Virus record (IMG/VR): IMGVR_UViG_3300042995_000006
Coordinates: 1-37,590 of that record
Direction: 5' to 3' (one strand)
DNA length: 37,590 nt
From: a virus
Part shown: in pieces, positions 755 through 37,489 of the stretch
Position numbering within the stretch: the first letter of the stretch is position 1
Layout: the number at the start of each line of letters is the position of its first letter
Notes under the pieces: generated by a model
What the model saw: the letters and a program-made list of their open reading frames with translations, nothing else
Told to the model about the DNA's origin: nothing
Database searches by the model: none
Made by a program: the position numbers and the translations under genes

Positions 755-763
755 AGTAGAAGC

Positions 764-1030: not shown

Positions 1031-2538
1031 CCGGTTTCCCGCGTCGCGACGCCCTCAGCTTCTTGACGGGCGGCGGCGAGATGGGCGCGCTAATTCGCGC
1101 CTATGACTGGGGTTCCACCCTGCTCGGTCAGCCCGAAACCTGGCCGCAGGCGCTCCGCACGACGGTTCGGCTGCTGCTGACCAGTCACCACCCCATGTTG
1201 ATCTGGTGGGGGCCTGAGTTCGTTCAGCTTTACAACGACGCATTCCGCCAGACGCTGGGCCCTGAACGGCATCCCTCGGCGCTAGGTGGGCACGGGCGCC
1301 AATGCTGGGATGAGGCCTGGGACATCATTGGCCCGCAGATTGAGTTCGTCATGGATGGCCGAGGCGCAACTTGGCAGGTGGACCATTTGGTGCCCCTTAC
1401 CCGCCATGGTCAGCGCGAGAATGTCTGGTGGAACTACGGCTACAGCCCCATCGACGATGACACTAAGCCTGGCGGTGTCGGCGGCGTGCTCGTAATTTGC
1501 CGCGACGTCACGGAGGAGCACCTTGCGCGCGAGGCCCTGCGTGCCGGAGAGGCGCGCTGGCGCGCCATCTTCGAGAATATGCAAGAGGGCTTCGCACTGT
1601 GCGAGATCGTCTATGGCCCAGACAGCAGGGCGAGCGACTTCCGCTACATCGAAGTCAACGCTGCCTGGGAGCGCCTGACCGGCCTCCCGCCGGAGGCCAT
1701 CGTCGGCCGGCTGGCCAGCGAGGCAATCCCGGGCATCGAGCGGTTCTGGACCGACACCTACGCACGTGTCGTCGAAACCGGCGAACCGGCACATTTCGAG
1801 TACCGGGTCGAGGCGCTTGGCCGGTGGTTCGAGGTCCTCGCATACCGCACGGAGCCTGGGCGCTTCGCTGCGCTGTTTCTCAACGTCACGGAGCGCAGGG
1901 CGGCGGAAGAGCGTCAGGCGCTGCTGTCGCTCGAGGTAGACCATCGTGCCAAGAATGCGCTGGCGGTTGTGCAGGCGGCGCTGCGCCTGACGAGGGCTCC
2001 GGATCTGCCGACATTCATCCGGGTGCTGGAAGGTCGTGTTGGTACGCTAGCGCGGGCGCAGACGCTGCTGGCCGAACAAGCCTGGGCCGGAGCTGATCTG
2101 GAGGCGATGCTGCACGGCGAGGTCGCAGCATTTCTGGTCACGGACTCAGAGCGGTCGCAGGTGGAACTGCATGGGCCGCCGGTGGCGCTACCTGCCGCGG
2201 CGACGCAACCTTTAGCCATGGCGGTGCACGAGCTGGCGACGAACGCGCTGAAGTACGGTGCGCTATCAGTGCCAAGCGGCCGCGTCACGGTCACATGGGA
2301 ATTCGACCAGCAAGGCAGGTTGCGGCTACGCTGGACAGAGCATGATGGTCCGCCTCTAACCGGACCGCCGCAGCGCCAAGGCTTCGGGTCGCGGGTGCTG
2401 AAGGGCACAGTGGAGGGCCAGCTGGGCGGCAGGGTTGGTCTGAACTGGAGGACGTCCGGACTGGATTGTACCATTGAGGTGCTGCTAACGCATTTGGCTC
2501 AGGCACCAAAAAGGCCTGCTACTCCGCAGCCTGCCTGA
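1027..2538 (+). CDS. PAS-containing HWE-family sensor histidine kinase
   Basis: This 503-aa cytoplasmic kinase has no membrane segment. Residues about 15-165 form an N-terminal PAS-like sensor (FLTGGGEMGALIRAYDWG, then WWGPEFVQLYNDAF). A second PAS runs from about 172 to 292. The HWE core follows: phospho-accepting His306 in LEVDHRAKNAL, the HELATNALKYGA nucleotide-binding N box (about 401-412), W436-T-E-H-D-G-P, and a Gly-rich G box near 452. HWE kinases autophosphorylate on the His and pass phosphate to a receiver. No receiver is fused here; an orphan receiver lies at 4874-5263. The GTG at 1027 is used because the N-terminal residues before Met19 look like the family. It overlaps the regulator's stop. 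Confidence 0.88.
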   Translation: MTGFPRRDALSFLTGGGEMGALIRAYDWGSTLLGQPETWPQALRTTVRLLLTSHHPMLIWWGPEFVQLYNDAFRQTLGPERHPSALGGHGRQCWDEAWDIIGPQIEFVMDGRGATWQVDHLVPLTRHGQRENVWWNYGYSPIDDDTKPGGVGGVLVICRDVTEEHLAREALRAGEARWRAIFENMQEGFALCEIVYGPDSRASDFRYIEVNAAWERLTGLPPEAIVGRLASEAIPGIERFWTDTYARVVETGEPAHFEYRVEALGRWFEVLAYRTEPGRFAALFLNVTERRAAEERQALLSLEVDHRAKNALAVVQAALRLTRAPDLPTFIRVLEGRVGTLARAQTLLAEQAWAGADLEAMLHGEVAAFLVTDSERSQVELHGPPVALPAAATQPLAMAVHELATNALKYGALSVPSGRVTVTWEFDQQGRLRLRWTEHDGPPLTGPPQRQGFGSRVLKGTVEGQLGGRVGLNWRTSGLDCTIEVLLTHLAQAPKRPATPQPA

Positions 2539-11997: not shown

Positions 11998-14900
11998 TCA
12001 GAAGCCGTAGGTGTCCTTCATCCATTGCGCTGCCGCATTGCGGTCGGTCACGTTGGAAATGGAGAAGAACAGCATGGTGGAGGCAAACCACCGGCCAGAC
12101 AGGCTGGAGTTGTTCATGAGCCGGATGCCGAGGCGGAGGATAGAGGTGCCCGGCACGGCGGCGGTGAAGGTGCCGTAGGTCGTTTCAACCAAATCCTTGC
12201 GGATTTTGCGGGTGCCGGCCTCATAAATGGCGCCGGCCGCCGTGGCTTGCCCCACCGTGTACCCGACGCCCGGCGAGGTCACATCGAACCCCCGCATATT
12301 CCGAAGCGTCGTGTCGGTTTCCGTGATGAAGGCCTGCCCGTTGGAGAGGTTGAAGTCCTCCTGGGAATTGAACGTGGCGAGGGACCAGATGCGGCCGTCG
12401 TCGATGGTTTGCGAGACGGTCATGGCGGCCAGGCCGCCGAAGCTGGTGAGGCCGCCGGTTTCGAAGCCGAACCGCTGCATGCCATGGCCATCGCCGGGAA
12501 ACCGCACGGCATGGCGCGGGATGGTGGAGCCCGGCAGGAGCATCACCTTGCCAGCGTCATCAGTCAGCCGCGCGCGCTGCGGATCGTTGAAGCGAATCAT
12601 GTTCTGGCCGAGCGGGCCCTGGTCGTACCAGATTCCCATATTGACGCGGCCGCCGGCGGCGAAGGCCTCGACCGCCTGCCAATCGAGGTTACCGTCCGCG
12701 GTGGTCCCGAAATCCATGGTGGCCGCGTTGCTGGCCTTCTCACCCTGGACCACCGGCCCGGTGTAGTTGCCGATGCGCTGCAACGAATAGGCCGCCCGGA
12801 TGTCGGTGGAAGGCATCGCGTTAAGGATGAGTGCCGGCGCTCCGACCTGCGGCATGGTGACACTCACCGCGGCAGCCACAGTGGAGGTGCCGCCACCGTT
12901 CTGCGCTGCGAAAGTCAGGGAGTAGTTGGGGGTCGTGTTCCCATTCGGGACCACAGCCACCGTGATCTGCCCCGCATTGCTCACCGCGAAGGTGCCGCCG
13001 GTGTTGCCGGCGGTGATGGTGACGGTGGCAGGCGTGCCGCCGGTGATGGCCAGCTGGCCGACCACCGTGCCCACCGTGGCGGCGTTCGGAACCGTGAAGC
13101 TCTGCCCTGGAGTGATGACGGGCGCGGCCACGAAGGGCACCACGTTGATGGTGATGTTCTGCGGCGTCCCGTTGTTGCTGAGGCCGAGCGGCCGCACCGA
13201 AAGGGTGTAGGCCGCGATGACGCCATCATCGAGCGGGCCAGTTGCCAGCGTCACCTTGCCCGGCGGCGTCATGAGGTTCCACGCGCCCCCGGTGTTGCCA
13301 GAGAGGATCTCGAATCCGACCACCGTGGCGCCGGTGGTCTGGATGTCGCCGATGCTCTGCCCGACCGCCAAGCTTTCGGAGGCCGTGAACACCTGGCCGG
13401 GGACGATCTCCGGCGAGACGGCCACCGCACCGAGCGTGACCATGGCGCCGCCCTTCACCGGGGAGAACCGGGACTCAACCTCGATATCGAGCGCGAAGGA
13501 TGTGGCGCCGGATCCGACGAGGGATTGGTTGATGACGATGCACCCGCTGCGCTGTTCGACGCGGAAGCGGTTCTCGCCGACGCTCGCGCCCCGGAACCGG
13601 AACGCCGTGGCGCCGCCGCCGGTGGTCTGGACCACGCCAACCACCGTGCCCACCGGCAATTCCTTGTTGAGCGGGTAGTTTTGCCCCGGTACCACCACCG
13701 GCGGCACGCTCGCGCGGGTCTGCCCGATGGGCATGACGTTGAGCGGGAGGCTTGTGCTGTTCCGGAGCCCGGTTGCTGTCGCGAAGGGAATGGTGGTCTG
13801 GTTGATAAGCCATCCCCACGCCCGGGCCATGCGCGCATCCTGCGGGAACAGGCTCCGCATGTGCGCCATGGCCGCCAGCGCCCATAGGCCGTAGTCACCA
13901 TCGATCGTGGAGAATGTGGACGGCTCGGCGCCATGCGAGCTCCCGCCCATGTCGTCCTGGATCTGGCGCCAGGTCGTGAACCGCACGCTGCCCGAATTGC
14001 GATAGGTCCAGATATTGCGGATGCCGTTGGACGGCCAGAAGTTCGCGCCGTCCTGGATGAAGCGGCCTGCATTGAAGTTGAGCGCCCACGCTTGATATTC
14101 CGCGGTCGCCGTGTCGCCGTTCGCCATGAGGCGATTCATGGTCGTATTGAAATAGTCCTGCTGCCACATGGATAGCGTGTCAGGGTAGCCATAAACCACG
14201 TCCTGCACGTATCCATGCGTCTCGCCGGCCTCGGCCTGCCACGGTGCGCGGCGGCCCAAGAGCCAGTTAAGATTTCCGCGCACCACGTCCGGCAAATAGG
14301 TTTCCGTCGCCGGCATGCGATTGCGCGGGAGCGAGATCCCGGCGAGGTAGATTTGCCGCATGAGCCATGCGCCGCCCCGCAGCTGGTTGCTGCGGATGAC
14401 GTTGACGCCCTCGCCATCGGTGTAACGCGTCACGGTGGTTTTGCCGCGCGCGCTGCGCTCGTTTAGCTGCTGCATGATTCCCCAGGTCGCCGAGGCGGCC
14501 AGGGAGTCGATGAGGCTCATACGCGCGGTGAGGATGCCCACGACACCCACGTAGTCCGGAATGTGCGAGCTCTTTTCCGAAAGCGTCCATCCGGATGCGT
14601 TGTCGTGGTTCGGACCATACTTCCCGCCCGTCCCCAAGCCGGGATCGCGGTAGTCAATCCACATATCCCCCTGTTCGGTCCGGTTGATCCAGTTGCCCGT
14701 TTGCTCACTCGGATTGGCGTTGGACATGATCCAGTTGTGCCAGGGGATCCCGTTGGCGGCCTCACCGGTGTCATGCACATGGCGGGTCATCCGATAGTCG
14801 CCGGTCATCAACCACGCGGCCACCGAGCGTGGCACCGGACCGATATCCGCGTTTCCACCTTGCGCGCCGAGGGTCTTGGAGATCCCCCGCTGATTCATCG

Positions 14901-17106
14901 GAGTATTCCATCCGGTGCTTGTCAGCTGCGCCACGGCGGCATTGATGATCGAGGCATCGACGCCATAGGTCACATCGAGCGGCGGGATGAGCCCCACGGT
15001 GGCCAGGAACTCCACCGGCGGCCGGATGGTCGGTCGCGCCGGAACGGCGCCGCCACCCACCACCGAGAACGCGCGCCGGACAAGGCGCTGGTAGCGCCAG
15101 AGCGCGAAGCTCCCGGAGCTATACTTTTGCGCGCCGTCGAGGGTGATGGTGACGCCGGCAACGGTGGTTGGCTGTGACGTACCTGCGTTCATGGCGAGGA
15201 TGTTGCCCACCGCCGCATCCGCCTCCATGGCCCCATCTTTGTATCCGATGAGGTCGGCGAACAGGAGGCCGCCGGTGCTCCCGCCCATTTCCACCGCGTT
15301 GATGGAGGCTTGCACGCGCGCATGCGTGACAAGTGGCCCGTTGCGGAGGCGCTCGGTGGGGATGCTGGTTTTCAGGTTGAAGGCTTGCGCGCCTACATTG
15401 ATGGCCGCGGTCCGCGAGGTCATGAAGGTGGCGAGCGAGAGGTTGGCGCCTGGTGCCGGGTGCGGCGCGTTCCTTACCATCTTGAACGGGATGCGCGTGC
15501 CGATCGGCACCGCAGGGGACTCGAACGCGAACAACGCCACCTTCACGCTGTTATCTTCCCCGGTGTCATCGTAGCGGGTCAGCACGTCCATTTGCGTGAT
15601 GAGCGGGGAGTCGTTGGACATGAGCCTCATCGTGGCCGTGTCGCCCGATGGCAGCATGCCCTTTTTGAACAGGAGCCCGAAGGTGCCCACCGTCCCGGCC
15701 GGGATGGCTGTCTCCTCGCCGACGATTTCGGACACGAAGAAAATATCCGTGGGCCCAGCCGGAGCCTCCACAATGATGTTGAGCGTAGCCGAAACCGGGT
15801 CGCCACTCGGCCCGATGGAGTTGGTCGCCACGACGCCAAATTGCAGCGCCGTGGCCGTCTCCATGTCCACCACGCCCTTGAGCGTCAGCTGGCCGGCGGA
15901 GGAGACGTTGAGATATGCCGCGCCGGGCCCGGACAGAGTCCAGGAGGTTGGCGCATTGCTGGCCATGAGCATGCCGATTGGCGCGCCAGGCGCGGCGGCC
16001 TCGTTGACGAAGAACGATTGCCCGACCTGCACCACCGGAAGCTCGAGCACATCCTGGACAGTGAAGGCGATCGCGGCGCTGTGCTTCCCCAGCGTGTTTT
16101 CGGCCTCGACCACCAGCGCATAGGTCGCGAGCGTCTCGAAGTCGAGCGACTTCGCCGTCCGCAAGGTGCCCGCGCTGTCGATCGAGACAGCATCACCCGT
16201 GTTGCCGGACAGGATGCGGAACGCGGACGGAAAGCCGCCGATGGTCTGGACCGTGCCGATGACGGTTCCAGCCGGTAGGTTCTCCGCCAGGCTGAACGAA
16301 GCCGGCACCACCTGTGGCGCGGTGAGGGTGGCGAGGTCGCCGGTCGCATAATACTGGCCATCCGCGGCGCGGCGCAGCTGGATGCTGGAGTAAAGGCCGG
16401 ACGTGGCCAGCAGCTTGCCGGGCGAGACGCGGATATTGAACGCGCCGATCGTCTCAGGCCGCACCCGCCCCTGTCCACCTTGGACGATCTCGATCTCGCC
16501 GGCCGGGAGGCCGTCCGGGACACCCACGACGATCTCCTCCGGGGCGGCGCCAACCAGGCCGCCATTGGCGACGTCGGCCGCGCTCAGCGTCGTGCTCGCG
16601 GTGACCACGCGCATCGGCTGGGCGACCGGTATTGATCCGCCACCTCCGCCGGTGCCGCCGTTGGCTAGCGCATCCTCCGCCTTGTCGAGCGCCAGCTCGG
16701 CCACCTCACGCGCAGAAGCGGCTACGGCTGCGGCGGCGTTGGCCGCGCCAGCCGCGGCGCCCGCCTGCGCGACGGCGGACTCCGCCTTGGTATTCGCGGC
16801 ATCCGCCTTGGTGTTGGCGGCCCCGGCCGCGGAGCTCGCGCCGGCAGCGGCGGCGGACGCGGTCGAGGCCAAGCCGGCGGCGGTGTCCGCGGCCCCCTGT
16901 GCAGCGGCGGCGGCAGCGGCAGCTGCGACCGCCTTGCTTTCTGCGGTCGAGGCGGCGGTGGTGGCCGTCCCCGCCTTGGCATCCGCAGCCTCGACGGCCG
17001 GATAGACCTCGTCGAAGTTCTCGTTGACCTTCTGGAACGCCACGCGGGTCTTGTCGCCGTTCTTCGCATTCGGCCCGGTGCCGAGGTTGATGGTCTTCTT
17101 GGCCAT
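11998..17106 (-). CDS. Giant 1702-aa tail fibre/adhesin with cadherin-like repeats
   Basis: Layout: residues 1-40 are a phage-fibre start (INLGTGPNAKNGDKTRVAFQ, then KVNENFDEVY); 40-150 are an Ala-rich helical shaft; 265-350 and 355-450 are cadherin-like Ig modules (FSLAENLPAGTVIGTVQ). Residues 455-700 are a beta domain; 700-1125 are an unidentified aromatic, mainly helical domain (WHNWIMSNANPSEQTGNWIN; QAEAGETHGYVQDVVYGYP). Three more Ig modules lie at about 1138-1235, 1235-1330 and 1330-1420 (VPGQ...VGTVVG). The C-terminus from 1425 resembles arabinofuranosidase/LamG-like domains of tail fibres (AAYSLQRIGNYTGPVV, IWYDQGPLGQNMI). The central domain could be a glycan lyase or hydrolase, but no catalytic residue is assigned. 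Likely a host-surface binding or depolymerising fibre. The ATG at 17106 matches the fibre N-terminus. Confidence 0.8.
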   Translation of the reverse strand: MAKKTINLGTGPNAKNGDKTRVAFQKVNENFDEVYPAVEAADAKAGTATTAASTAESKAVAAAAAAAAAQGAADTAAGLASTASAAAAGASSAAGAANTKADAANTKAESAVAQAGAAAGAANAAAAVAASAREVAELALDKAEDALANGGTGGGGGSIPVAQPMRVVTASTTLSAADVANGGLVGAAPEEIVVGVPDGLPAGEIEIVQGGQGRVRPETIGAFNIRVSPGKLLATSGLYSSIQLRRAADGQYYATGDLATLTAPQVVPASFSLAENLPAGTVIGTVQTIGGFPSAFRILSGNTGDAVSIDSAGTLRTAKSLDFETLATYALVVEAENTLGKHSAAIAFTVQDVLELPVVQVGQSFFVNEAAAPGAPIGMLMASNAPTSWTLSGPGAAYLNVSSAGQLTLKGVVDMETATALQFGVVATNSIGPSGDPVSATLNIIVEAPAGPTDIFFVSEIVGEETAIPAGTVGTFGLLFKKGMLPSGDTATMRLMSNDSPLITQMDVLTRYDDTGEDNSVKVALFAFESPAVPIGTRIPFKMVRNAPHPAPGANLSLATFMTSRTAAINVGAQAFNLKTSIPTERLRNGPLVTHARVQASINAVEMGGSTGGLLFADLIGYKDGAMEADAAVGNILAMNAGTSQPTTVAGVTITLDGAQKYSSGSFALWRYQRLVRRAFSVVGGGAVPARPTIRPPVEFLATVGLIPPLDVTYGVDASIINAAVAQLTSTGWNTPMNQRGISKTLGAQGGNADIGPVPRSVAAWLMTGDYRMTRHVHDTGEAANGIPWHNWIMSNANPSEQTGNWINRTEQGDMWIDYRDPGLGTGGKYGPNHDNASGWTLSEKSSHIPDYVGVVGILTARMSLIDSLAASATWGIMQQLNERSARGKTTVTRYTDGEGVNVIRSNQLRGGAWLMRQIYLAGISLPRNRMPATETYLPDVVRGNLNWLLGRRAPWQAEAGETHGYVQDVVYGYPDTLSMWQQDYFNTTMNRLMANGDTATAEYQAWALNFNAGRFIQDGANFWPSNGIRNIWTYRNSGSVRFTTWRQIQDDMGGSSHGAEPSTFSTIDGDYGLWALAAMAHMRSLFPQDARMARAWGWLINQTTIPFATATGLRNSTSLPLNVMPIGQTRASVPPVVVPGQNYPLNKELPVGTVVGVVQTTGGGATAFRFRGASVGENRFRVEQRSGCIVINQSLVGSGATSFALDIEVESRFSPVKGGAMVTLGAVAVSPEIVPGQVFTASESLAVGQSIGDIQTTGATVVGFEILSGNTGGAWNLMTPPGKVTLATGPLDDGVIAAYTLSVRPLGLSNNGTPQNITINVVPFVAAPVITPGQSFTVPNAATVGTVVGQLAITGGTPATVTITAGNTGGTFAVSNAGQITVAVVPNGNTTPNYSLTFAAQNGGGTSTVAAAVSVTMPQVGAPALILNAMPSTDIRAAYSLQRIGNYTGPVVQGEKASNAATMDFGTTADGNLDWQAVEAFAAGGRVNMGIWYDQGPLGQNMIRFNDPQRARLTDDAGKVMLLPGSTIPRHAVRFPGDGHGMQRFGFETGGLTSFGGLAAMTVSQTIDDGRIWSLATFNSQEDFNLSNGQAFITETDTTLRNMRGFDVTSPGVGYTVGQATAAGAIYEAGTRKIRKDLVETTYGTFTAAVPGTSILRLGIRLMNNSSLSGRWFASTMLFFSISNVTDRNAAAQWMKDTYGF

Positions 17107-17119
17107 GATCGGACTCCGG

Positions 17120-18655
17120 TTACGCCGCGGATGCGAAGGAGAGGGTTTCGGTGGTGACGTCGATGTCGAGGGAGGCGCCCTCGATGGCTGCAATGCGCGC
17201 TTCCAGCGCGGCGATGGCGGCCATCGCCGCCGACAGCTGCCCGCCTAGGGATGCCGCGGCCTGGGCCGCTGCTGTGGCGCTCGCGGCGGCCGCCGTCGCA
17301 GATGCTGCGGCTGCGGCCGCGGTCGTCGCTGCAGCTGCCGAGGCGCGCCCTACTGCCGCGGCCGCCTGCTGGGCGTCGGTAGCGGATCCAGCCGCGGTCG
17401 ATGCTGAGCTGGCAGCGGCGCCGGCGCTGCCGCTGGCGGAGGTGGCCGAGGTGCCGGCGGCGGTCGCCGCCTGACCGGCGGTCGTTGCATGGCCTGCTGC
17501 TGTGCTGGCGTGGCCCTGAGCGGTGGCGGCGGAGGCGCCGGCGGCACCTGCTGCCGAGGAGGCTGCGGAGGCGCTTCCTGTGGCGCTCGCAGCGGCCGCC
17601 TGCGCGTCCGCCACGCCGGTGCCAACTGCCGCGGCGGCGGCCTCAGCAGCGGTGCGTGCCACCTGAGCGCCGGTGGCGGCGGAGCTTGCGGTGGTGGCTG
17701 ACGCTGCAACAGCAGCCTGAGCGGCCTCCGCTGCCTGTCGCGCGGTGCCCGCTGCTGCAGAAGCCGTCTCGGCGGACTGTACGGACGCGGCGACCAGCAC
17801 GGCCGCATCGGCTACCGCCTGGACGTCTACAGAGACGGATTGCACTGAGGCAGCCGCGGCCGCGGCATGTCCCTGGGCCGCGTCGCGGGCGGCCTGCGCT
17901 GCGGCTACGGCACCGGTGGACGTAGTGGCCGCTCCGGTAGCTGCCGAGGCGCTGCCAGCCGCTGCGGTGGCACTCGCGGCCGCGGCGTCGCGGGACAACA
18001 TGGCCTCATCGGCAGCCTCGCCAGCGGCCAGCGCATTGCCCTCGGCCTGGCCGGCGGCAGTAACGGCCTGGGACCGGGCGGTCTCGACTGCGGTCTGAAC
18101 ATCAGCCGCCGCGCCGGCTGCGGTCTCCGCCTGGTCCGCCGCGGCGGCGGCCTCGGCCGCGCGCGCAGCCGCTGTGCTTGCGGATGCGGCCGCCGCGGTC
18201 GCCGCGCTGCCCGCCGTGGCGGCGGAGCCACTGGCTGCTGTGGCACTAGCGGCGGCAGCGGTGGCGCCAGCTGCAGCCGCCTCCCCGCTTCCGATACCGG
18301 CCGCGGCGGAGGAGGCCGCAGCGTTGGCGCTCAGTACAGCGGCGTCCGCACTGGAGTCCGCAAGGGCAGCGGCTTCCTCAGCAGCGGTGCGTGCCGCGAT
18401 GACAGTCGTGACGCCGGCTGCTGCGGTCGCCGCAGAGGTGGCGGCTGCTGCGGCTGATGCGGCCGCGGCCGTCGCGCTCTCGCCTACCTCAGCCACCCGG
18501 CTCATCGCCTCGTCGACGGCGGCCAGCACCAGGATCTCGGTGGAGACCTGCTGCGGCTGGTTGTCAGCGGTGTGGCCGACGATCCGCAGCGCCAGCGGGG
18601 CTGGAGCAACCGGCAGCTCGGTGACGATCTGGACGTCGACGTTCGTCTCAGACAT
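17120..18655 (-). CDS. Ala-rich 511-aa tail fibre shaft protein
   Basis: After a beta-type head (residues 1-45, VDVQIVTELPVAPAPLALRI), about 400 residues are almost only Ala, Ser, Thr, Gly with regular Glu/Gln/Arg. They form a helical, heptad-like low-complexity shaft. The end is a short coil and cap (AMAAIAALEARIAAIEGASL, then DIDVTTETLSFASAA). This is the design of trimeric side-tail-fibre shafts with no receptor domain of their own. It precedes the 1702-aa fibre by 13 nt and overlaps the previous gene by 8 nt. The long antisense frames over it are GC-bias artefacts. Confidence 0.75.
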   Translation of the reverse strand: MSETNVDVQIVTELPVAPAPLALRIVGHTADNQPQQVSTEILVLAAVDEAMSRVAEVGESATAAAASAAAAATSAATAAAGVTTVIAARTAAEEAAALADSSADAAVLSANAAASSAAAGIGSGEAAAAGATAAAASATAASGSAATAGSAATAAAASASTAAARAAEAAAAADQAETAAGAAADVQTAVETARSQAVTAAGQAEGNALAAGEAADEAMLSRDAAAASATAAAGSASAATGAATTSTGAVAAAQAARDAAQGHAAAAAASVQSVSVDVQAVADAAVLVAASVQSAETASAAAGTARQAAEAAQAAVAASATTASSAATGAQVARTAAEAAAAAVGTGVADAQAAAASATGSASAASSAAGAAGASAATAQGHASTAAGHATTAGQAATAAGTSATSASGSAGAAASSASTAAGSATDAQQAAAAVGRASAAAATTAAAAAASATAAAASATAAAQAAASLGGQLSAAMAAIAALEARIAAIEGASLDIDVTTETLSFASAA

Positions 18656-27827: not shown

Positions 27828-28189
27828 CACGCGATCTCCATCAGCGAGCCGGACCAGCGCTCCGTGATGGTGCCGTCCGCCGCGGCGTATTCCAGGTCGC
27901 CGATCTGGCAGGCGTTGTAGAGGATGGCCGTGGTGCCATCCGCCAGCTCGGCAGTGATGGTCGCGTCCATGACCTTCTCGAGATCGGTCAGGCGCATGCC
28001 GGGCGTCTTGATGATCTCCGCCTCCAGATAGGGGCGCACCGCCATCTCCTTGACGCCGACGGGGCCGGAGAGGCCGACCACGTCCTCCCGGGTCACCGAG
28101 CTCACGCCGAGGGTCATGGTCGCGCCGAGCGACTGCTGCACGCCATTCACCAGCAGGTAGCAGGTGCCGGCGATCCGCTTGTTGGCCAT
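27827..28189 (-). CDS. Tail tube protein
   Basis: This 120-aa protein shows AGTCYLLVNGVQQSLGATMT, EDVVGLSGPVGVKEMAVRPY, and ATITAELADGTTAILYNACQ near the end, which fits the contractile-tail tube family (Mu gpM-like). It stacks as hexamers inside the sheath. It follows the sheath gene by 4 nt and overlaps the chaperone by 1 nt. Confidence 0.9.
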   Translation of the reverse strand: MANKRIAGTCYLLVNGVQQSLGATMTLGVSSVTREDVVGLSGPVGVKEMAVRPYLEAEIIKTPGMRLTDLEKVMDATITAELADGTTAILYNACQIGDLEYAAADGTITERWSGSLMEIA

Positions 28190-28193
28190 GTCG

Positions 28194-29672
28194 TCAGCTC
28201 CTGAACTGCGCGAGGACGGCGAGCACCCGCAGGCCGTTGATGAAGTCGGGCGCGTAGAGGATGTTCACCCGGGACACGTCCGTCAGGCTCCGCTCCACGA
28301 TGGTGGCCGCGGCGAAGGCCTGGGCGTTCTCCACCAGGCCCTCCTCCTCCATGATCGCGTACTGCGCGATCAGCTCCGCCTTGATGATCTTCGGCGTCAC
28401 CACCGGCTGCCCGGCCCCGAATCGGGTGCCATCGTTGGCCAGCTTAGAGCGGGCGAACTTCTGGGTGAGCACCGAGCGCAGCCGGCGGATCACCTCCATG
28501 CCGACGAACAGCACCTCGGTGTCGAGGTAGGAGAGATCGGCCTGGCCGAACTTGTTCCGCTGGTATGTGGTTACCGCCCGCAGGATCATCGCGCTGCCAT
28601 CGCGCGCGAAGTCGGCCAGCGCCACGCCGGAGGACAGCAGCGTCTGCTGCGTCGTCTTGGCGAACCGCTTGTCCATCGTCGGCGCCAGCACGCCGCGGAT
28701 CGGCACCGTCTGCAGCGGCCGCGCCGGGTCCGCCCGGAGCGACACCGCCGCTGCGCCGGCATAGGCCGCCGACCACTCCGAGGCCGGGGTGGGGCTGCCG
28801 TTTACGCCAATCACCGTGATGTGGGGATCGTTGCGCGCGGCGCCGAAGGTCTGCAGCGCATTGGCGTCGCCGGCGCGCATGGCGAAGACGTGGCCATAGG
28901 CCTGGCGCTGCCAGGACCATCGGCCAGTCTGGTCGCTCATCAGGTCGCGCATAGCATCCAGCTGGGCGCTGCCGCTGTAGGGGCAGACGATGAAGTCGAA
29001 CTCCTCGTCGCCCAGCGCCGACGCCAGCGGGGCCAGATCCGGGTCCGTGGCGCCGCCCGACATGGCGGTGACAGCGACACCGACACCCGGCGGAAGGCTC
29101 TCATTGCCGGCGCCGCCCCGGTAGTTCACCCGCAGGTCGATGCCGTTGCCGGAGGAGCCCTTGTGGCGCGCAGTGAAGGTCACCACCCCGGCGTTCACCG
29201 TCGCCGTCACCGGGAGCGTGCCATTGGCATTGATCGCGGCAGCGAGGGCGGCAGCGATGGCGGTGGCCGCCGCACCCATGGCCACCGGGACTGGCACTAC
29301 CATGCCGCCGGCATAGAAGGGCAGCGTCCCGGCCGCGGTCGCAGGCCCGGTAATGGTCGCGCTGCCGGTCGCGGCGGTGCCCGCAGGCACGTCGACGAAG
29401 GGATAAACCCAGAGTTCGCCGAAGGCGTCATTGGCGCGGTACGCCTTGACCATCCGGGCGAGCATGCTGCCCTGCCCAAACAGGCCGGCGGCCTCCTCAT
29501 AGGTGGTCACGAGGCGCGGCCACACCATGGCCGCCTGCAGCGGCGTGTTGGTCTGGCCGATGATCAGCGTGCGCTTCACGCCGCTGCCGTAGCCGGCCTG
29601 GCTGTTGTCGAACTCGGCCCAGAAGAACGGGACGCGGAGATCGCCGGGGATGGTCGAGAAGCCTACGGCCAT
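28194..29672 (-). CDS. Contractile tail sheath protein (Mu gpL-like)
   Basis: This 492-aa protein starts MAVGFSTIPGDLRVPFFWAE, then RTLIIGQTNTPLQAAMVWPR. It carries the NGIDLRVNYRGGAGNESLPP middle and the conserved C-terminal handshake region (DVSRVNILYAPDFINGLRVL). Length is as in Mu gpL. Sheath contraction drives the tube through the host envelope. A GAGGAGG lies 8 nt before the ATG at 29672; the frame upstream reads as noise. Confidence 0.93.
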   Translation of the reverse strand: MAVGFSTIPGDLRVPFFWAEFDNSQAGYGSGVKRTLIIGQTNTPLQAAMVWPRLVTTYEEAAGLFGQGSMLARMVKAYRANDAFGELWVYPFVDVPAGTAATGSATITGPATAAGTLPFYAGGMVVPVPVAMGAAATAIAAALAAAINANGTLPVTATVNAGVVTFTARHKGSSGNGIDLRVNYRGGAGNESLPPGVGVAVTAMSGGATDPDLAPLASALGDEEFDFIVCPYSGSAQLDAMRDLMSDQTGRWSWQRQAYGHVFAMRAGDANALQTFGAARNDPHITVIGVNGSPTPASEWSAAYAGAAAVSLRADPARPLQTVPIRGVLAPTMDKRFAKTTQQTLLSSGVALADFARDGSAMILRAVTTYQRNKFGQADLSYLDTEVLFVGMEVIRRLRSVLTQKFARSKLANDGTRFGAGQPVVTPKIIKAELIAQYAIMEEEGLVENAQAFAAATIVERSLTDVSRVNILYAPDFINGLRVLAVLAQFRS

Positions 29673-29685
29673 GGTGGGGGCCTCC

Positions 29686-30309
29686 TCACGTTGCGGTCGG
29701 GTTGAAGGGGCCTTCCCACTCGGCGCGGCCGTCTGGGCCGGTTGGGCGAGGCGCAGGCTGGGGGGCGGGCCAGGGCGGCGGTACCGCGTAGGTGCCCGCT
29801 CGGTCCGCTGGATCGATTGCGTCGATCCGCACGTCGGCGCCGCTGTAGAGGTGCTCCAGCCTAGGCTCATGCGGCTCGCGCCACTCGAGATCCAGGGAAA
29901 CGGTCACGTCGCCCAGCACCAGGTCACCATCGGCCTTGATGTCGACGGAGGTCTCCACGCTGCTGATGGAGCGGAACTCGCTGACGAAGTCGGCCTCCTG
30001 GAGCAGCGCCTCCTCGATAGCGCCCGCCAGGTCATCCAGCGCCGCTTCAACCAAGTCCTCGGTCTTGCCAGCGGCACGGGCGACCACAGCCAGTGTCAGC
30101 GTCACATCGAACAGCGGCGCGCCGATCGAGATGTTCGTCTTGCGCTCCCGGGTCGCATAAACCAGCAGGGCTGGCAGGCGCGCCGCTTCGTCCGTGACGG
30201 AGAGCGGCCGCGCCCGGGCCGAGAAGACGCGCTTCCCGACCTGCGGCATGCGGGCGGTCAGCAGCGCGATCGCCGCCTTCCGCACCTGAACCCGAACGGG
30301 GTGAGCCAT
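29686..30309 (-). CDS. Tail terminator-like / tail completion protein
   Basis: Position and fold suggest a tail terminator (gpU/Mu gp37 type). The 207-aa protein opens VRVQVRKAAIALLTARMPQV, then ALLVYATRERKTNISIGAPL and FDVTLTLAVVARAAGKTEDL. An alpha/beta core ends in GDVTVSLDLEWRE, and a Pro-rich tail follows. It caps the tube and binds the head. No specific family is certain. It overlaps the next upstream gene by 1 nt. Confidence 0.65.
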   Translation of the reverse strand: MAHPVRVQVRKAAIALLTARMPQVGKRVFSARARPLSVTDEAARLPALLVYATRERKTNISIGAPLFDVTLTLAVVARAAGKTEDLVEAALDDLAGAIEEALLQEADFVSEFRSISSVETSVDIKADGDLVLGDVTVSLDLEWREPHEPRLEHLYSGADVRIDAIDPADRAGTYAVPPPWPAPQPAPRPTGPDGRAEWEGPFNPTAT

Positions 30310-30650: not shown

Positions 30651-30980
30651 TTAGACCGCCAGACCGTTGAGCCGGACTTCGACGGTCGCATCGCCGGCGA
30701 GCTGCGCGCGCGTAGCGGCGCCGATCAGACGGTTGGCAGTGGCCGTGCCGGTCACATTCTTCGCGGTGTCGTCCCAGTAGACCTTCTGCCACTGGGTCAG
30801 TGCGCCGGCCGCCTTGGGCAGCCGGACGACACCCTGGATGCGAGCGACGCCCTCGCCGCCGGACGGGACGTTCTGGGTCGCGACGCCGAAGAGCGAGCCG
30901 AGCACGAAGCCCTGGCCAGAGACGAGATCGGCTGCCGCGGTGAACCGCAGCTGCTCGCCGACCTGTACGAAGTTCTGCAT
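30651..30980 (-). CDS. DUF2190 head decoration-like protein
   Basis: This 109-aa protein shows RFTAAADLVSGQGFVLGSLF, then GVATQNVPSGGEGVARIQGV, WQKVYWDDTAKNVTG and IGAATRAQL, which match DUF2190 proteins. These often follow major capsid genes and are thought to decorate the head. A gap of about 73 bp to the capsid gene shows no promoter I can support. Confidence 0.82.
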   Translation of the reverse strand: MQNFVQVGEQLRFTAAADLVSGQGFVLGSLFGVATQNVPSGGEGVARIQGVVRLPKAAGALTQWQKVYWDDTAKNVTGTATANRLIGAATRAQLAGDATVEVRLNGLAV

Positions 30981-31053
30981 GACATATCTCCGCGGCGCGG
31001 CCCGGTCAGGGTGCCGCCGCCGTTCCTAAAGGTTGCGGGGTTGGCGAGCCGAA

Positions 31054-32430
31054 TCAGGCCGGGCCGGGATTGTAATAGACGCCGTTCCAGTCGATTGGCG
31101 CCGCCTCGTAGTCCAGGCTCACCCGCACCTTGAGGCCGAAGGTATCGAAGCTGGACTCCGTGACCACCTCCGGCGTCTCGCGGCCGTTCAGCACCGAGAC
31201 GGCGATCATCGGGTGCGAGTCCGGGTCGGCCATCAGCGCCCACGCGTTGGTAGGGAAGCTTGGCTCGTAGACGATCTCGTAGGCGCCGTTGAAGACGTTG
31301 TCGGTGTTGTCGGCCAGCTTCAGGCTGGCCATCAGCTTCTGCGCTTCGAAGCGGCGGCCGGTGCCGACGATGAGGTAGCGGCCGGCCAGACCCAGAGGCT
31401 TGCCGGCCACCGCCGCCTGGTTCGCCAGCGCATTCGCCGCCGCGATCAGGCTCGCCTCGGTGATGGCGCTGCCGGACGCTGCGATGTTGTTGTGCGCCGC
31501 GCTGAGGAAGGGCTGCCCATCCGTCATGGTGTAGGCGGCGGTGGTGCCGAGCTGGAACACGCGCCACACCCGCGAGGACAGGCTGCGCGCGGCCATGGCA
31601 CCGTAGGTCGCGCCGTCCGCGGTGAACTGCGTCAGGTCGTTGTTGATGATGGACTGGCGCGAGAAGGCGAAGCCCTTGGCGAAGGTCTTCAGGCCGAGAC
31701 GGCCGAGAGCCCGCTGGATGGCGCCGTAGCGGATCTCCTCATGTTCGAGGACCTCCTCCAGGTCCGGCGCATCGAAGGCGCCGGCGACGTCACGCTGGCG
31801 GAAGTTGTCGAAGGAGTAGACCCGGCCGATCTTGCGCCATTCCTGGGAGACCCGCTGGGCATTGTCGATGACGATCGCCTCGATCGCCTGGCCCAGCAGC
31901 GTGCCGAAGTCGCTGGTGGTCAGCATACCGACCGTGGCCGAGGCGAAGACCTCGCGGTAGAGCTGCGCCGTCGGCATCCGGGCGCGGCGGCCCGTGCGCG
32001 CCTCGAGGAAGTCGGTGGCCATGTCATGCATCGAGAGGCCGTCCATCGGGGCGGCGGCCGCCAGGATGTCCGGACGCTTCACGCCCCCGCGCTTGGCGAT
32101 GGCGGCGACAATCGACTTGCTGGCGTCCAGCGCGTGCACGCTGGACCCGCTGACGACCGCCGGACGCGCCGGGGTATCGGTGGCCATGGCCGTAATCGCG
32201 GCGTCGCGAACCGCGTCGAGAGTGGCCTGGGCGCTCAGCTGGTCCAGCACGAACTGCGGCCCGAGCTTGGCGCGCGTGGCGACAGCCTGGATCTCCTGCA
32301 GCGTCGCGGGCTTGTTGGCCGGCGGGGCCGGTGCAGGGGCCGGCGCGGTGGGGGTCACCGGCGGGGTGGCGGCAGCGTCGACGACGGGGGCAGTGCCGCC
32401 CGGCGCGGTGTTGGGGGCGGTACCCGACAT
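31054..32430 (-). CDS. Nested in-frame major capsid protein (internal start)
   Basis: An internal ATG at 32430 (MSGTAPNTAPGGTAPVVDAA, residue 263 of the fusion) is preceded by AGGAGAG at ideal spacing. It would give a 458-aa product holding the linker and the whole capsid domain without the protease. This resembles lambda C/Nu3, where a nested start yields the scaffold. The extra Pro-rich N-terminus may act as scaffold. The internal start is an inference from the ribosome site. Confidence 0.55.
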   Translation of the reverse strand: MSGTAPNTAPGGTAPVVDAAATPPVTPTAPAPAPAPPANKPATLQEIQAVATRAKLGPQFVLDQLSAQATLDAVRDAAITAMATDTPARPAVVSGSSVHALDASKSIVAAIAKRGGVKRPDILAAAAPMDGLSMHDMATDFLEARTGRRARMPTAQLYREVFASATVGMLTTSDFGTLLGQAIEAIVIDNAQRVSQEWRKIGRVYSFDNFRQRDVAGAFDAPDLEEVLEHEEIRYGAIQRALGRLGLKTFAKGFAFSRQSIINNDLTQFTADGATYGAMAARSLSSRVWRVFQLGTTAAYTMTDGQPFLSAAHNNIAASGSAITEASLIAAANALANQAAVAGKPLGLAGRYLIVGTGRRFEAQKLMASLKLADNTDNVFNGAYEIVYEPSFPTNAWALMADPDSHPMIAVSVLNGRETPEVVTESSFDTFGLKVRVSLDYEAAPIDWNGVYYNPGPA

Positions 32431-33216
32431 GGTGTTGCTCTCCTGGGTGTTCGGGGCCGGTGACGCCGGCGCGGTGGAGGGGGGTGCAAGGCCCGCCATG
32501 ACCTGGACGGCCGCGGGCGCATGGGCGAAGGCGCGGATCAGCGCACTGGCTCGGGGGGTCACCCTCGACCGAGCTTCGGGCGCCGGAACGGCGGGCGTCT
32601 CGACGCGGTCGGCGAAGCCTTCGAGAACGGCCTCTTCGGCCGTCATCCAGGTCTCCGCGGACATCATCGCCAGCACATCCTCACGGGACTTGCTGGACCG
32701 GCTGGCGTAGAGGCCGGCCATCGTCGCATCGATCTTCTCGAGGATGGCAATGGTCGCGGCGTGGGCCTGCTTGTCACCCATGGTGAAGCCGGCCGCGTTG
32801 TGGATCATCAGGAAAGACGCCGGGGCCATCACCACCTCATCGCCGGCCATGGCGATGAAGGAGGCGCTGGAGGCGGCGACGCTCTCGACCACCACCTGCT
32901 TCCGGCCCGCGTGACGGGCCAGCAAGTTGTAGATGGCGAAGCCCTCGAAGGCGTTGCCGCCGGGGGAGGAGATGCGGATCACCAGGTCGCGGTCGCCGGC
33001 GTCCCGCAGCACATCCAGGACGCCGTGCGCGGTCACTTCCCAGCCGATCTCCCCCATGATGAGGATCTCGACTGGACCGGTGTCGGCCGCGCGGATCGGC
33101 GGCGCGACGCTGCGCGTGGAGAGCTGAGACGCAGCGACGAGATCCGCCTGCTCCGTCTCGGCACCATGCTCGCGCAGGTAGGCGGCAACGGAGGCTGCCG
33201 GGCTAAGCTTCGTCAT
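31054..33216 (-). CDS. ClpP-like prohead protease / major capsid protein fusion
   Basis: This 720-aa fusion begins with a ClpP-like serine protease (about 45-205): RISSPGGNAFEGFAIYNLLA, nucleophile Ser116 in VESVAASSAS, His139 in FLMIHNAAG. A Pro/Ala linker (205-300) follows. The major capsid part has REVFASATVGMLTTSDFGTL in its N-terminal half and ends WALMADPDSHPMIAVSVLNG...VSLDYEAAPIDWNGVYYNPG. The protease should trim the scaffold and capsid during maturation. An internal ATG at 32430 has its own strong ribosome site, so the capsid may also be made separately. The ATG at 33216 overlaps the portal stop by 14 nt. Confidence 0.92.
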   Translation of the reverse strand: MTKLSPAASVAAYLREHGAETEQADLVAASQLSTRSVAPPIRAADTGPVEILIMGEIGWEVTAHGVLDVLRDAGDRDLVIRISSPGGNAFEGFAIYNLLARHAGRKQVVVESVAASSASFIAMAGDEVVMAPASFLMIHNAAGFTMGDKQAHAATIAILEKIDATMAGLYASRSSKSREDVLAMMSAETWMTAEEAVLEGFADRVETPAVPAPEARSRVTPRASALIRAFAHAPAAVQVMAGLAPPSTAPASPAPNTQESNTMSGTAPNTAPGGTAPVVDAAATPPVTPTAPAPAPAPPANKPATLQEIQAVATRAKLGPQFVLDQLSAQATLDAVRDAAITAMATDTPARPAVVSGSSVHALDASKSIVAAIAKRGGVKRPDILAAAAPMDGLSMHDMATDFLEARTGRRARMPTAQLYREVFASATVGMLTTSDFGTLLGQAIEAIVIDNAQRVSQEWRKIGRVYSFDNFRQRDVAGAFDAPDLEEVLEHEEIRYGAIQRALGRLGLKTFAKGFAFSRQSIINNDLTQFTADGATYGAMAARSLSSRVWRVFQLGTTAAYTMTDGQPFLSAAHNNIAASGSAITEASLIAAANALANQAAVAGKPLGLAGRYLIVGTGRRFEAQKLMASLKLADNTDNVFNGAYEIVYEPSFPTNAWALMADPDSHPMIAVSVLNGRETPEVVTESSFDTFGLKVRVSLDYEAAPIDWNGVYYNPGPA
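32434..32446 (-). promoter_or_regulatory. Strong internal Shine-Dalgarno in the protease-capsid gene
   Basis: On the minus strand AGGAGAG lies about 8 nt before the ATG at 32430. The same bases encode part of the linker (NTQESN), so the ribosome site is embedded in the fused reading frame. It is among the best ribosome sites of the operon. Confidence 0.55.
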
Positions 33217-34798
33217 TGGGCGGTACCTCTCCGGGGCGACGCGGCCTGGCCGCGCCGGTGGCGCCGATCTCGATGGCGGCGTTCTGCTGCGGGCTCTGCG
33301 CGCCGCCGCTGTTGCTGATGCGGCGCGGATCGCTGTCCAGGATGATGCCGCGATCATCGTGCAGCTTGTTCGCCGCCGCGATCTCGTCGGCCTGGCGCTT
33401 CGGGTCGTAGCCCATCGAGGTCACGGCCTGCTGCCAAGTCTCCAGACCGGCGCGGACGGAGGCCACCAGCGCCGGAAGCTCCCGCGTTGGGTCGACCATT
33501 TCGAAGCGCGGCGGCGCCCATTCGACCGGGTAGCCACCCGGGCGCTCCGGCAGGGCGCCAGAAACGACGGCAGCCTGGATGAAGGCCTCCCAGATGGGCC
33601 CGCACAGCATCGGGATGTGCATGAGCTCCTGGTCTTGCTCGACATCCCGACGGAACTCGATCTTGCCCGCGCGCAGGCTGCTGTAGTTCGCCTGCCGGAG
33701 ATCGCCGGTCAGTTGGTCATAGGTCACGCGAAACCCGCTTGCGATCGCCATGAGCTCGTGCAGCGCGAAAGGCTCGAAGGGCCCAGGGCCAGACGGCTGG
33801 AGGAACTTGACGTCGCTGCCAATGGGCAGGTTCGAGACCATGCCTGGCCAGAGGTCAGTCGGCATGGCGCGGTCTGGCACCTCCGCGGGAACGCCCCCCT
33901 GCCCCATGTCCATCTCGAGCGGGTTCGGCGTCACCGTGAACACGCCCAGCAGCGCTTGCACCTTGGCTTGCTCGAGCGTGGCTTCCTCGAACTCTTCCAG
34001 CCGGCGCAGGCGCAGCAGGACGGTTGCCGCGTCGGGTACGCCACGAACTTGGCCGGGGCGCTGCGCATGCGCCCGGACCAGGTGGATCATGTCGGTGGCG
34101 GGAATCCTGTCATACCGGGGCCCGGCGGTGGTGTAGAACGCTGCAGCATTCTCACCGGGGTGCTGGCGCAACAGGCGGTAGGCGGTGCGCCGGCCGCGGC
34201 TGTCAAACTCCACGCCATCCACCGACCGCACTGGGTCCGCCTCGACCGGCCCGAACATCTGAACCGCGTCGTCCAGCAGGTCCGGCTCCAGCACCTCGAG
34301 CTGCAGAGGAACTGGGATGCCCTCGCGACGCGCCTCTGCTGGCGGGAGGCGCACTAGGCGGACCAACGCCTCACCCGATTCTGCACGGGTTCGCGCCGCC
34401 AGCGCCTGCAAGCCGTAGACGTTCAGCCGGCCATGCAGGTCGGCCTTCGCACTCCAGCGGTCCCACAGGTCCAGCACCCGCGTGTCGAGCTGGTCATCAC
34501 CGGTCTTGCTCCGCGGCGCGATGCCGTAGCCGATCTCGTGGGCAACACGGATCTGAATCGCACGGGCGCCATAGGATCCGTCCCGCACCACCTCCCGCGC
34601 TCGGCGGCGCAGGTACCGGAGCGCCGGCCCGACCTCAGCGTTCGGGCCTCGCGATGACGCCGGCCACTCCCGCCCGCGGGGCATCATCTTGCCTGCCTCG
34701 TAGGCCCGCACCACCCGGTCGGTCATCGCCCGCGCCTGGGCACGGGCAAGCCCCCGCGTCGGCGAGACCGCCGCAACAACCCAGTCGAGCCAGTTCAT
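33203..34798 (-). CDS. Portal protein (lambda gpB family)
   Basis: This 531-aa portal has REVVRDGSYGARAIQIRVAH, LDLWDRWSAKADLHGRLNVY and RAHAQRPGQVRGVPDAATVL, then GFRVTYDQLTGDLRQANYSS and LRAGKIEFRR, all as in lambda gpB-type portals. It forms the dodecameric DNA gate and docks the terminase. It starts 6 nt after the gpW-like gene and overlaps the capsid gene by 14 nt. Confidence 0.93.
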   Translation of the reverse strand: MNWLDWVVAAVSPTRGLARAQARAMTDRVVRAYEAGKMMPRGREWPASSRGPNAEVGPALRYLRRRAREVVRDGSYGARAIQIRVAHEIGYGIAPRSKTGDDQLDTRVLDLWDRWSAKADLHGRLNVYGLQALAARTRAESGEALVRLVRLPPAEARREGIPVPLQLEVLEPDLLDDAVQMFGPVEADPVRSVDGVEFDSRGRRTAYRLLRQHPGENAAAFYTTAGPRYDRIPATDMIHLVRAHAQRPGQVRGVPDAATVLLRLRRLEEFEEATLEQAKVQALLGVFTVTPNPLEMDMGQGGVPAEVPDRAMPTDLWPGMVSNLPIGSDVKFLQPSGPGPFEPFALHELMAIASGFRVTYDQLTGDLRQANYSSLRAGKIEFRRDVEQDQELMHIPMLCGPIWEAFIQAAVVSGALPERPGGYPVEWAPPRFEMVDPTRELPALVASVRAGLETWQQAVTSMGYDPKRQADEIAAANKLHDDRGIILDSDPRRISNSGGAQSPQQNAAIEIGATGAARPRRPGEVPPNDEA

Positions 34799-35030: not shown

Positions 35031-37148
35031 CTACCTCCCGAAATAGCTCCTGCCCCGCCCGCCGAAGTACCGTGGCGCCGCCGGCGCCGGGCGCGGCGGC
35101 GCGGGCGCGGGTGCGGCCGGAGCGGCGGCGACCGCCTCAGCCACCGCGCCCGCCTCACCAACGAGGGCGTTCATGTCCCACGCGGCAGCCCAGCTTGGGG
35201 GCCTGTCCCAGTCGATCCGCCCAATGCCATGCAGGCGCGCCATGACGTGCGTCATGACCATAAGGTCGCCTGCTTCATTCCTCTGACCCGACGGCGGCTT
35301 GTGCCATGACCCGTTCGGCGCCCGCCGCTCGGCCACCAGCTGCTCAAACCAGGGATGCGGCGGCCCCGCCCTGTCCTTCAGCTCGGCCGGGAAGTGCACG
35401 AACCACGGACCGGGATCCGCCCGCTCCAGCTGCGCCGCCAGGTCATCCTTGAACAGGTTCGGATTGAACCGCGCGACCGGGACCTGACCGCGGGCGATGC
35501 CGCTCGCCTTGCGCTCTCTCCGGACATCCTCCGGGTAGACCACCTGCAGCCGCGCGGCGTTCAGGCCCGGCGTGCCCTGCGTCGGCAGCACGTCCCAGGC
35601 ATCCCGCCCATCCAGCCTGCCCAGCAACCTGACCTTGCCGGCCAGGCGCCACCGCAACCACGCCTCGTAGGCCCTCGACGTCACGCCAGCGGAGCCGCCG
35701 AGGTCCATGCTGACGGCCCGCGGCCGCATTACCCGTCCCGATCCATCCGCCAGCGGCAGCGGCCGCCTCAGCGCCTCCAGCAGCGCGTCCCATGCAGCGG
35801 GATCGGTCGCCGTCTCGGCCGGCAGCCGCTCCACTCCCAGAACCCAGCTCTCGCCCCCGATGCCCCAGCCACGGCGAACCAGCTCGAACCGGTTGGCCTG
35901 AACGTCGGCGCTGGCGGTGATGAACCGAACGCCCTCCGGCACCTGGCCCAATCGCAGAGCCTCCTCGGCCCGATCGGCCACTGCCGTTGCATCAACGCTT
36001 CCAACCCGCCGGGCGGGCACATGCGGGATGCCCCACTGCTTCACCATCACCTGGCGGAGCGTGTCGTCCTCACCCAGCTGCTCAAGCTCCTGCTCGGCAG
36101 CTACCCTTGCTCTGGCCAATCCGCCGATACCGCCGAGGACGAAGGGGCTCATCACGCCCACAATCCAGAAGCCCGCCGTGCCGTGGCGCAGCAGCTGCCC
36201 GCTGACGGCCCCCTCGACATCGACTTCCTGGCCCGTGCCGATCCATCGGCCGGCCGCATTCATCGCCTTGCGCTCGTGATCCTCGATCAGGCCGCCGCAG
36301 GTGGGACACACCAGGCGAGCTGCGTCGCGGACCTCGTCCAGCGACGCACCGGCTGGATAGTCCAGCGCCATGAACCGAGAGGCACCAGGGTTCGGGCTGC
36401 TGTGGGCGCCGCAGCGCGGGCACGGCCACCACCAGGTCCCGCGCGTGCTGTCGGCGTAGACCGCCATGATGCCGCGCTTCCAGCCGCCCGGAGATGTGCC
36501 CACCGCCAGGTCCGGGTGCGACATCATCAGCAGGCAGCTCCCGGCGCCATACACCTGGCGACGCACATCCAACACCGGCTTCGCCTCGCCAATGCCCGCG
36601 TCGTCGTAGTTATCGACCTCATCCGCCACGATCCGTGGGGCGTTCTTCGAGATCAGGTTGGTCCGCGTGAAGCTGAGGAACTCCGTGCGCATGACGCCGA
36701 AGTTCTTGAAGTTCAGGCTGTCATCAACCGGATCCGAGCCGAGCCGCTCCCGCATCCTCGGATGTGCCGCGATCATGGGATCCACGCGATCTTTGACGAA
36801 CGCCTGCATGCCCGGGTGCGTCTGCATGAACCAGAGGAAGTCGGCCGGGTCGGCCTCCACCGACATCTGCAGCCAGTTCTCGGCGATAGTTGTCTTGGCG
36901 CACTGGCCGGGGCCGGCCACCGCGACGGTCGTGTAATCGCCGGAGGTCAGTGCATCCGACGGTCCCGACAGGTACGGGGCTGTCGCCGGGTCGAAAGGCC
37001 GGGTCTCCTCCCCGAAGCCCTTGGTCAGCCGCCGATGACGGCCCGCATACTCCGTGAGCGTCAGGCGCTCCGGCGTGATCAGGTCGCCGAAGACTTCCAG
37101 AACCAGATCATCAGCGTCAGCGAATGGACCGGGATCTTCAGTCAACAT
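35031..37148 (-). CDS. Terminase large subunit (phage GpA family)
   Basis: This 705-aa packaging motor/nuclease has TVAVAGPGQCAKTTIAENWL (atypical Walker A, residues 79-86) and PRIVADEVDNYDD (Walker B-like, D176-E177). A CPRCG...CPTCG pair (near 242 and 281) could bind zinc. The C-terminal half holds the nuclease: RFITASADVQANRFELVRRG and VSMDLGGSAGVTSRAYEAWL. An Ala/Pro-rich tail follows. The family is that of lambda gpA. It overlaps the small subunit gene by about 11 nt. The Walker A lysine is preceded by Ala instead of Gly. Confidence 0.93.
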   Translation of the reverse strand: MLTEDPGPFADADDLVLEVFGDLITPERLTLTEYAGRHRRLTKGFGEETRPFDPATAPYLSGPSDALTSGDYTTVAVAGPGQCAKTTIAENWLQMSVEADPADFLWFMQTHPGMQAFVKDRVDPMIAAHPRMRERLGSDPVDDSLNFKNFGVMRTEFLSFTRTNLISKNAPRIVADEVDNYDDAGIGEAKPVLDVRRQVYGAGSCLLMMSHPDLAVGTSPGGWKRGIMAVYADSTRGTWWWPCPRCGAHSSPNPGASRFMALDYPAGASLDEVRDAARLVCPTCGGLIEDHERKAMNAAGRWIGTGQEVDVEGAVSGQLLRHGTAGFWIVGVMSPFVLGGIGGLARARVAAEQELEQLGEDDTLRQVMVKQWGIPHVPARRVGSVDATAVADRAEEALRLGQVPEGVRFITASADVQANRFELVRRGWGIGGESWVLGVERLPAETATDPAAWDALLEALRRPLPLADGSGRVMRPRAVSMDLGGSAGVTSRAYEAWLRWRLAGKVRLLGRLDGRDAWDVLPTQGTPGLNAARLQVVYPEDVRRERKASGIARGQVPVARFNPNLFKDDLAAQLERADPGPWFVHFPAELKDRAGPPHPWFEQLVAERRAPNGSWHKPPSGQRNEAGDLMVMTHVMARLHGIGRIDWDRPPSWAAAWDMNALVGEAGAVAEAVAAAPAAPAPAPPRPAPAAPRYFGGRGRSYFGR

Positions 37149-37395
37149 CGGGCAGGCCCGACTCCCGAAGGCGCACGACGAAGGCCCGGAGCCTCTCCTC
37201 CACGCTGGCGCGGAGCCGGCGCTGCTGGTCCAGCGTCAGGCCTAACTCCTCGGCCAGTGCCGCCGGCATTGCGCTCAGCTCCCGCCGAAGCGCAACCACG
37301 GCCCTGCCTAGTGAACGTCGAACCTCATCGGTCCGCGCGAGAGCACCCGCCTCCTGTGCCAGCTGCCGCTCCATGCCGCGCACACGCAGCGCCAT
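37138..37395 (-). CDS. Terminase small subunit-like protein
   Basis: This 85-aa helical protein (VRRSLGRAVVALRRELSAMP, then EELGLTLDQQRRLRASVEER) fits the C-terminal part of small terminases by position directly before the large subunit. The ATG at 37395 has no Shine-Dalgarno. In-frame codons upstream (GHDPALARLAEIGPGRSEDD, then LSPNQKF) look coding, back to about 37470. No canonical start occurs before the stop at 37525-37527. Either the true start is non-canonical or the N-terminus is damaged. The DNA-binding head of Nu1-type proteins is missing. Confidence 0.55.
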   Translation of the reverse strand: MALRVRGMERQLAQEAGALARTDEVRRSLGRAVVALRRELSAMPAALAEELGLTLDQQRRLRASVEERLRAFVVRLRESGLPDVD

Positions 37396-37489
37396 GAACT
37401 TCTGGTTGGGTGAGAGGTCATCCTCAGATCTGCCAGGCCCGATCTCCGCCAGGCGCGCCAGGGCAGGGTCGTGTCCCTGGTGATGGTGT

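Follow-up and report, generated by a model that had tools for sequence, protein, structure and literature searches.

Conserved nested starts in phage protease-capsid fusion genes suggest a second, scaffold-capsid product

A phage head gene that fuses a ClpP-like protease to a scaffold-like region and a major capsid protein carries a conserved nested start, and with a probability that we put at roughly 85%, this one gene yields two co-assembling proteins with a common C-terminus: a minor 720 amino acid protease-scaffold-capsid protein and a bulk 458 amino acid scaffold-capsid protein. The gene lies on the minus strand of what we call the window, i.e., the whole 37,590-nucleotide stretch of viral DNA that was analysed (IMG/VR record IMGVR_UViG_3300042995_000006, positions 1 to 37,590), and its features are collected in Table 1. 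A phage shell needs hundreds of capsid proteins and far fewer proteases, which is a problem when the two are fused; the HK97 head, for instance, requires 415 copies of the capsid protein, about 60 of the protease and 12 of the portal (PMC12749128). Given a conserved nested start, a single gene would meet these unequal demands.

Table 1. Features of the protease-capsid fusion gene and its neighbours in window coordinates.
Feature	Position	Strand	Basis or remark
Full-length protease-scaffold-capsid fusion	31054..33216	-	720 aa; frame open throughout
Shine-Dalgarno-like GGAGAGG before first start	33226..33232	-	sequence
ClpP-like head maturation protease domain	32599..33069	-	residues 50-206; Pfam PF00574, NCBIfam NF045542
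Variable linker, protease to nested start	32431..32598	-	residues 207-262; poorly conserved
Internal Shine-Dalgarno AGGAGAG	32438..32444	-	kind and spacing kept in relatives
Putative nested ORF from Met263, scaffold-capsid product	31054..32430	-	458 aa; Shine-Dalgarno and ATG, conserved in relatives
Pro/Ala-rich arm of nested product	32311..32430	-	residues 263-302; AlphaFold2, predicted disordered
Helical delta/scaffold-like region	31945..32301	-	residues 306-424; model; homologous in both fusion families
HK97-fold major capsid domain	31072..31926	-	residues 431-715; PF25209, Foldseek
Portal protein	33203..34798	-	PF05136; upstream, 14-nt overlap with fusion gene
Head decoration (cement) protein	30651..30980	-	PF09956, PHROG 122; downstream

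The initial annotation had placed a ClpP-like protease and a capsid protein in one frame, and this was borne out: residues 51-206 of the open frame match the Pfam family CLP_protease (E 2.4e-24) and residues 431-715 Phage_capsid_4 (E 2.3e-31). The nearest curated families are NF045540, NF045541, NF045542 and PHROG 133; the fusion scores 165.9 bits against NF045542, above the cut-off of 120, and 343.9 bits against NF045540, aligning to model positions 2-651 of 652 and falling below the cut-off of 475. The gene sits between the portal and decoration genes of a phage that, having a sheath, is contractile-tailed. Homologues share the same first Met (MTKLSPAAS or MPKISPAAS) at the position of 33216, and an upstream ATG at 33357 is therefore unlikely to be the start of the fusion. 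Long plus-strand frames in the window run opposite conserved genes for head and tail (35355-37397, 28164-29705 and 31033-32463); these probably reflect high G+C instead of coding sequence. The tail region contains a minus-strand ORF of 1731 amino acids (11998-17193) whose sole match, a weak one, is to a family of baseplate-tail fibre connectors. The left end (62-2538, plus strand) encodes a PAS/HWE histidine kinase as well as a helix-turn-helix protein; these resemble bacterial signalling genes and are perhaps the host flank of a prophage.

Read on the minus strand, the internal site is CCC-AGGAGAG-CAACACC-ATG, with the ATG at 32430-32428. The predicted AGGAGAG is thus present before Met263, separated from the ATG by 7 nt (9 nt from the AGGAG core) rather than the earlier figure of about 8, and the length of the separate product predicted from Met263 is also correct, 720 less 262 being 458. 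This ATG is the sole in-frame ATG in the linker of the window ORF with a Shine-Dalgarno match of at least 5 nt; of course, one such combination in a single gene is not significant by itself. The linkers of the two closest relatives, L025 (74% identity) and L026 (65% identity), carry cAGGAGaccacc-ATG and cAGGAGGacccccgc-ATG, respectively, and the Shine-Dalgarno sequence and ATG are thus retained in a linker with little conservation at the protein level. Conservation of the internal site in homologous fusions, the check put forward in the initial annotation, was then assessed using loci gathered from phages, plasmids, IMG/VR and genomes, including a family-level search over 60 relatives. Clustering at 88% identity reduced 160 ClpP-capsid fusions to 83 usable non-redundant ones, 32 gamma-type and 51 other. 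The site is kept across the family: most of the 83 have a Shine-Dalgarno sequence and in-frame ATG at a clade-specific position, either 20 or about 57 residues past the protease, and that the nested start is a real signal is well supported by this comparison of sequences.

The gamma-type fusions indicate that the signal acts at the nucleotide level. All 32 have the in-frame ATG at +20, within the motif xEEFxxMP, and the codon five before the nested Met is xAG in 31 of them; where a Glu codon forms the Shine-Dalgarno sequence it is GAG in 26 of 26 cases, compared with 39% GAG in the same genes. This GAG is the sole invariant column among 159 two-fold-degenerate columns, and relatedness fails to explain it because all 159 share one tree. 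Shine-Dalgarno energy was -6.3, versus -3.9 in synonymous shuffles, none of 200 of which was as strong. Among the 51 other fusions, 39 have an ATG with a Shine-Dalgarno match of at least 5 nt between +30 and +110, whereas codon-order permutation predicts 12.3 +/- 3.1 (maximum 21 genes in 300 permutations); for matches of at least 6 nt, the corresponding values are 25 genes and 3.0. Positions concentrate at +50-60, and elsewhere in the same ORFs only 0-8% of in-frame ATGs carry a Shine-Dalgarno sequence. Synonymous shuffling did not set the site apart in this group (1 of 51 genes below 0.05), and it is uninformative there because the encoded residues themselves spell AGGAG; the case for these fusions rests on position, codon-order permutation, variety of reading frame and accessibility. 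A few fusions (L187, L250, L051 and L252) lack a clear nested site. One of these, L051, is on a 10.5-kb Klebsiella aerogenes plasmid; it and L050, on a 10.8-kb E. coli plasmid, combine a fusion with replication-type genes and have no adjoining portal, and the plasmids are possibly capsid-bearing satellites or remnants. A Microbulbifer plasmid fusion (L048:1237-3215) is annotated as two overlapping frames, one for the protease and one for the capsid part, which may reflect a frameshift, a sequencing error or a real split.

In both positional classes, mRNA folding energy shows a structure minimum at the nested ATG, which is more accessible than other Shine-Dalgarno-bearing in-frame ATGs (p 1.9e-11 and 2.5e-13 for the two classes, values that are optimistic because the sequences are related despite clustering at 88% identity). 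Residue 2 of the nested product is Pro, Ala, Ser, Thr or Gly in 37 of 48 cases, and Pro in all 32 of the gamma type, a pattern that looks like that of real protein N-termini. A different reading is that translation yields the full-length fusion alone, that the protease releases itself by cutting within the linker, and that the AGGAG-ATG arises incidentally from the sequence of a conserved cleavage site. The protease is indeed present in cis, cleavage of the delta domain is known in HK97-like systems (PMC12749128), and KE or GG frequently adjoins the site in the linker. However, the nested Met is preceded by 46 different tetrapeptides among 48, the nucleotide motif persists while frame and residues vary, a Glu codon is invariant despite its synonymous alternative, the ATG sits at a dip in mRNA structure, and the site shifts between +20 and +57; moreover, protease and capsid would have to be equimolar. 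We consider self-cleavage of a sole product to be unlikely. It is also quite unlikely that the shorter product comes from a separate, shorter transcript in the manner of herpesvirus UL26.5, with the ATG as its first start. Such a transcript would fit every sequence feature of the nested start, but phage late genes usually share a single transcript, and only the route to the 458 amino acid protein would be altered, not the product.

Fusions of the NF045541 type (loci L261-L340, L030, L056, L057, L063 and L069-L072) have an HK97-gp4-type protease, as typed from its motifs rather than its structure, ahead of the same scaffold-capsid module. A strong nested site lies within 60 residues past the protease in 25 of 39 of them, versus 2.6 expected (maximum 7), and 38 of the 39 have a site with a Shine-Dalgarno match of at least 4 nt. 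The nested Shine-Dalgarno sequence occurs in all three reading frames in this second family, and the nested ATG is again accessible (p 1.9e-12). The segment from nested start to capsid is homologous across the fusion groups (hhalign probability 98.6-99.6); loci L341-L344, considered as unfused homologues of the window capsid, turned out to be fusions too. A tree of the capsid domain, quickly made and with some long branches, requires three or more switches of protease type, two of which are forced by well-supported branches; the scaffold-capsid ORF, together with its start, therefore behaves as a unit. We think it probable that fusions with either protease are two nested genes, that the scaffold-capsid ORF is the evolutionary unit, and that proteases have been swapped at least two to three times with the start retained. 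If so, capsid proteins recorded as fusions in numerous phage and prophage genomes would be annotated with an N-terminus other than that of their main product, and annotations would be corrected in a large group of phages, including those of Escherichia, Salmonella, Pseudomonas, Rhodobacter and Paracoccus.

A nested start is also found in unfused ClpP-type proteases. Most of those with long tails, of 150-260 amino acids (L217-L247, e.g., L217:2480-3532), have one at +52-63; no nested start was found in the short-tail proteases among loci of this type. Gene order in L217 is lambda-like, with the portal, the protease-tail gene and the decoration gene followed by more head genes. The likeness to lambda C/Nu3 suggested in the initial annotation stands in part: it is apt because in unfused ClpP proteases with scaffold tails the nested start occupies the same position, but the predicted product of the fusion is scaffold plus capsid. 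Homology between the delta region of the window gene and lambda-like Nu3 tails was not found (hhalign probability 0.1); the values against those tails were 75 for the alpha group and 83 for the U35 group. Most simply, the fusion would have kept an older C/Nu3-like nested start that now yields scaffold and shell. That the start is only an unused remnant of an ancestral separate gene, whether C/Nu3-like or HK97 gp5-like, is the least probable alternative: such ancestry explains the origin of the start, because unfused relatives have it at the same place and fusions with two different proteases share the scaffold-capsid module, but an unused site would decay, whereas selection looks current (the invariant GAG and the structure minimum) and the Shine-Dalgarno sequence is retained in L026, within the subfamily of the window gene, even as its position shifts.

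The AlphaFold2 model of the 458 amino acid product has a mean pLDDT of 83.6. Its first 40 residues, the Pro/Ala stretch, are low-confidence coil (pLDDT about 43-62), residues 44-162 are helical, and an HK97-fold core follows; Foldseek matched the model to HK97 and other HK97-fold capsids, with E down to 2e-9. The Pro/Ala stretch had been suggested as the scaffold, but this is probably not so: it is predicted to be disordered, and conserved delta/scaffold-like helices come after it. Given the coil and the helical block, the helices are the likelier scaffold, and the Pro/Ala stretch probably forms a flexible arm.

We infer the use of the nested start, the ratio of products, co-assembly and the order of cleavage from sequence, as follows. 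Ribosomes starting at 33216 would make the minor 720 amino acid fusion, probably by translation coupled to termination of the portal gene, as suggested by 17 of the 20 loci examined, in which the two genes overlap at the first start. Ribosomes binding independently at the internal Shine-Dalgarno sequence and ATG 32430 would make the bulk 458 amino acid protein, the putative equivalent of HK97 gp5 with its delta domain. The two proteins would co-assemble via their common capsid part, through which the fusion would bring the protease into the prohead sub-stoichiometrically, and the protease would then cut the scaffold off the capsid protein. A systematically weaker first start was considered and dropped: in the 20 loci, good Shine-Dalgarno sequences are frequent at the first start too, and the product ratio therefore cannot be read from the sequence.

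The fusion gene itself is of a known kind, the classic case being that of Gifsy-2, in which a ClpP-like protease, a scaffold-like middle and an HK97-fold capsid protein are encoded between the portal and decoration genes. The window gene has the same three parts in one ORF, as does that of MD8, and the same gene position. NCBIfam already names a "ClpP-like prohead protease/major capsid protein fusion". The title of Effantin et al. 2010 (Virology 402:355; cited in PMC8538268) refers to the tripartite capsid gene of Gifsy-2, fused capsid and protease have been described in Rhodobacter phages (PMC8601537), and section 2.5 of the MD8 paper (PMC8508860) has protease, scaffold and capsid seemingly derived from one gene, gp5; an internal start is not mentioned in the capsid section of that paper. 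Nor was one reported for such fusions in the literature available, the scope of which excluded the 2010 Gifsy-2 paper. Relative to NF045540-type fusions such as MD8 gp5, the window gene shares the architecture but is a non-member under the curated 475-bit cut-off. The NF045541 fusions, e.g., that of Rhodobacter phage RcFrancesLouise, have the same scaffold-capsid module and nested start signature, but their N-terminal protease, judged from motifs, has a fold unrelated to ClpP. As in lambda C/Nu3 and Mu I/Z, an in-frame internal start would give the C-terminal part alone, and its position at +57 is within the +52-63 of the lambda-like unfused loci; unlike C/Nu3, the frame runs on to the capsid stop at 31054 and so includes shell as well as scaffold. 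The nested product is thus closer to HK97 gp5, likewise a helical N-terminal delta or delta-like region followed by the HK97 fold, than to Nu3, although HK97 has a separate protease, gp4, whereas the ClpP-like protease is fused in frame here. Herpesvirus UL26/UL26.5 similarly pairs a protease-scaffold fusion with a shorter co-terminal scaffold product; the latter, however, has a transcript of its own, and the capsid protein is encoded by another gene. Among the phages, a nested start would unify the assembly strategies of lambda, HK97 and Gifsy-2.
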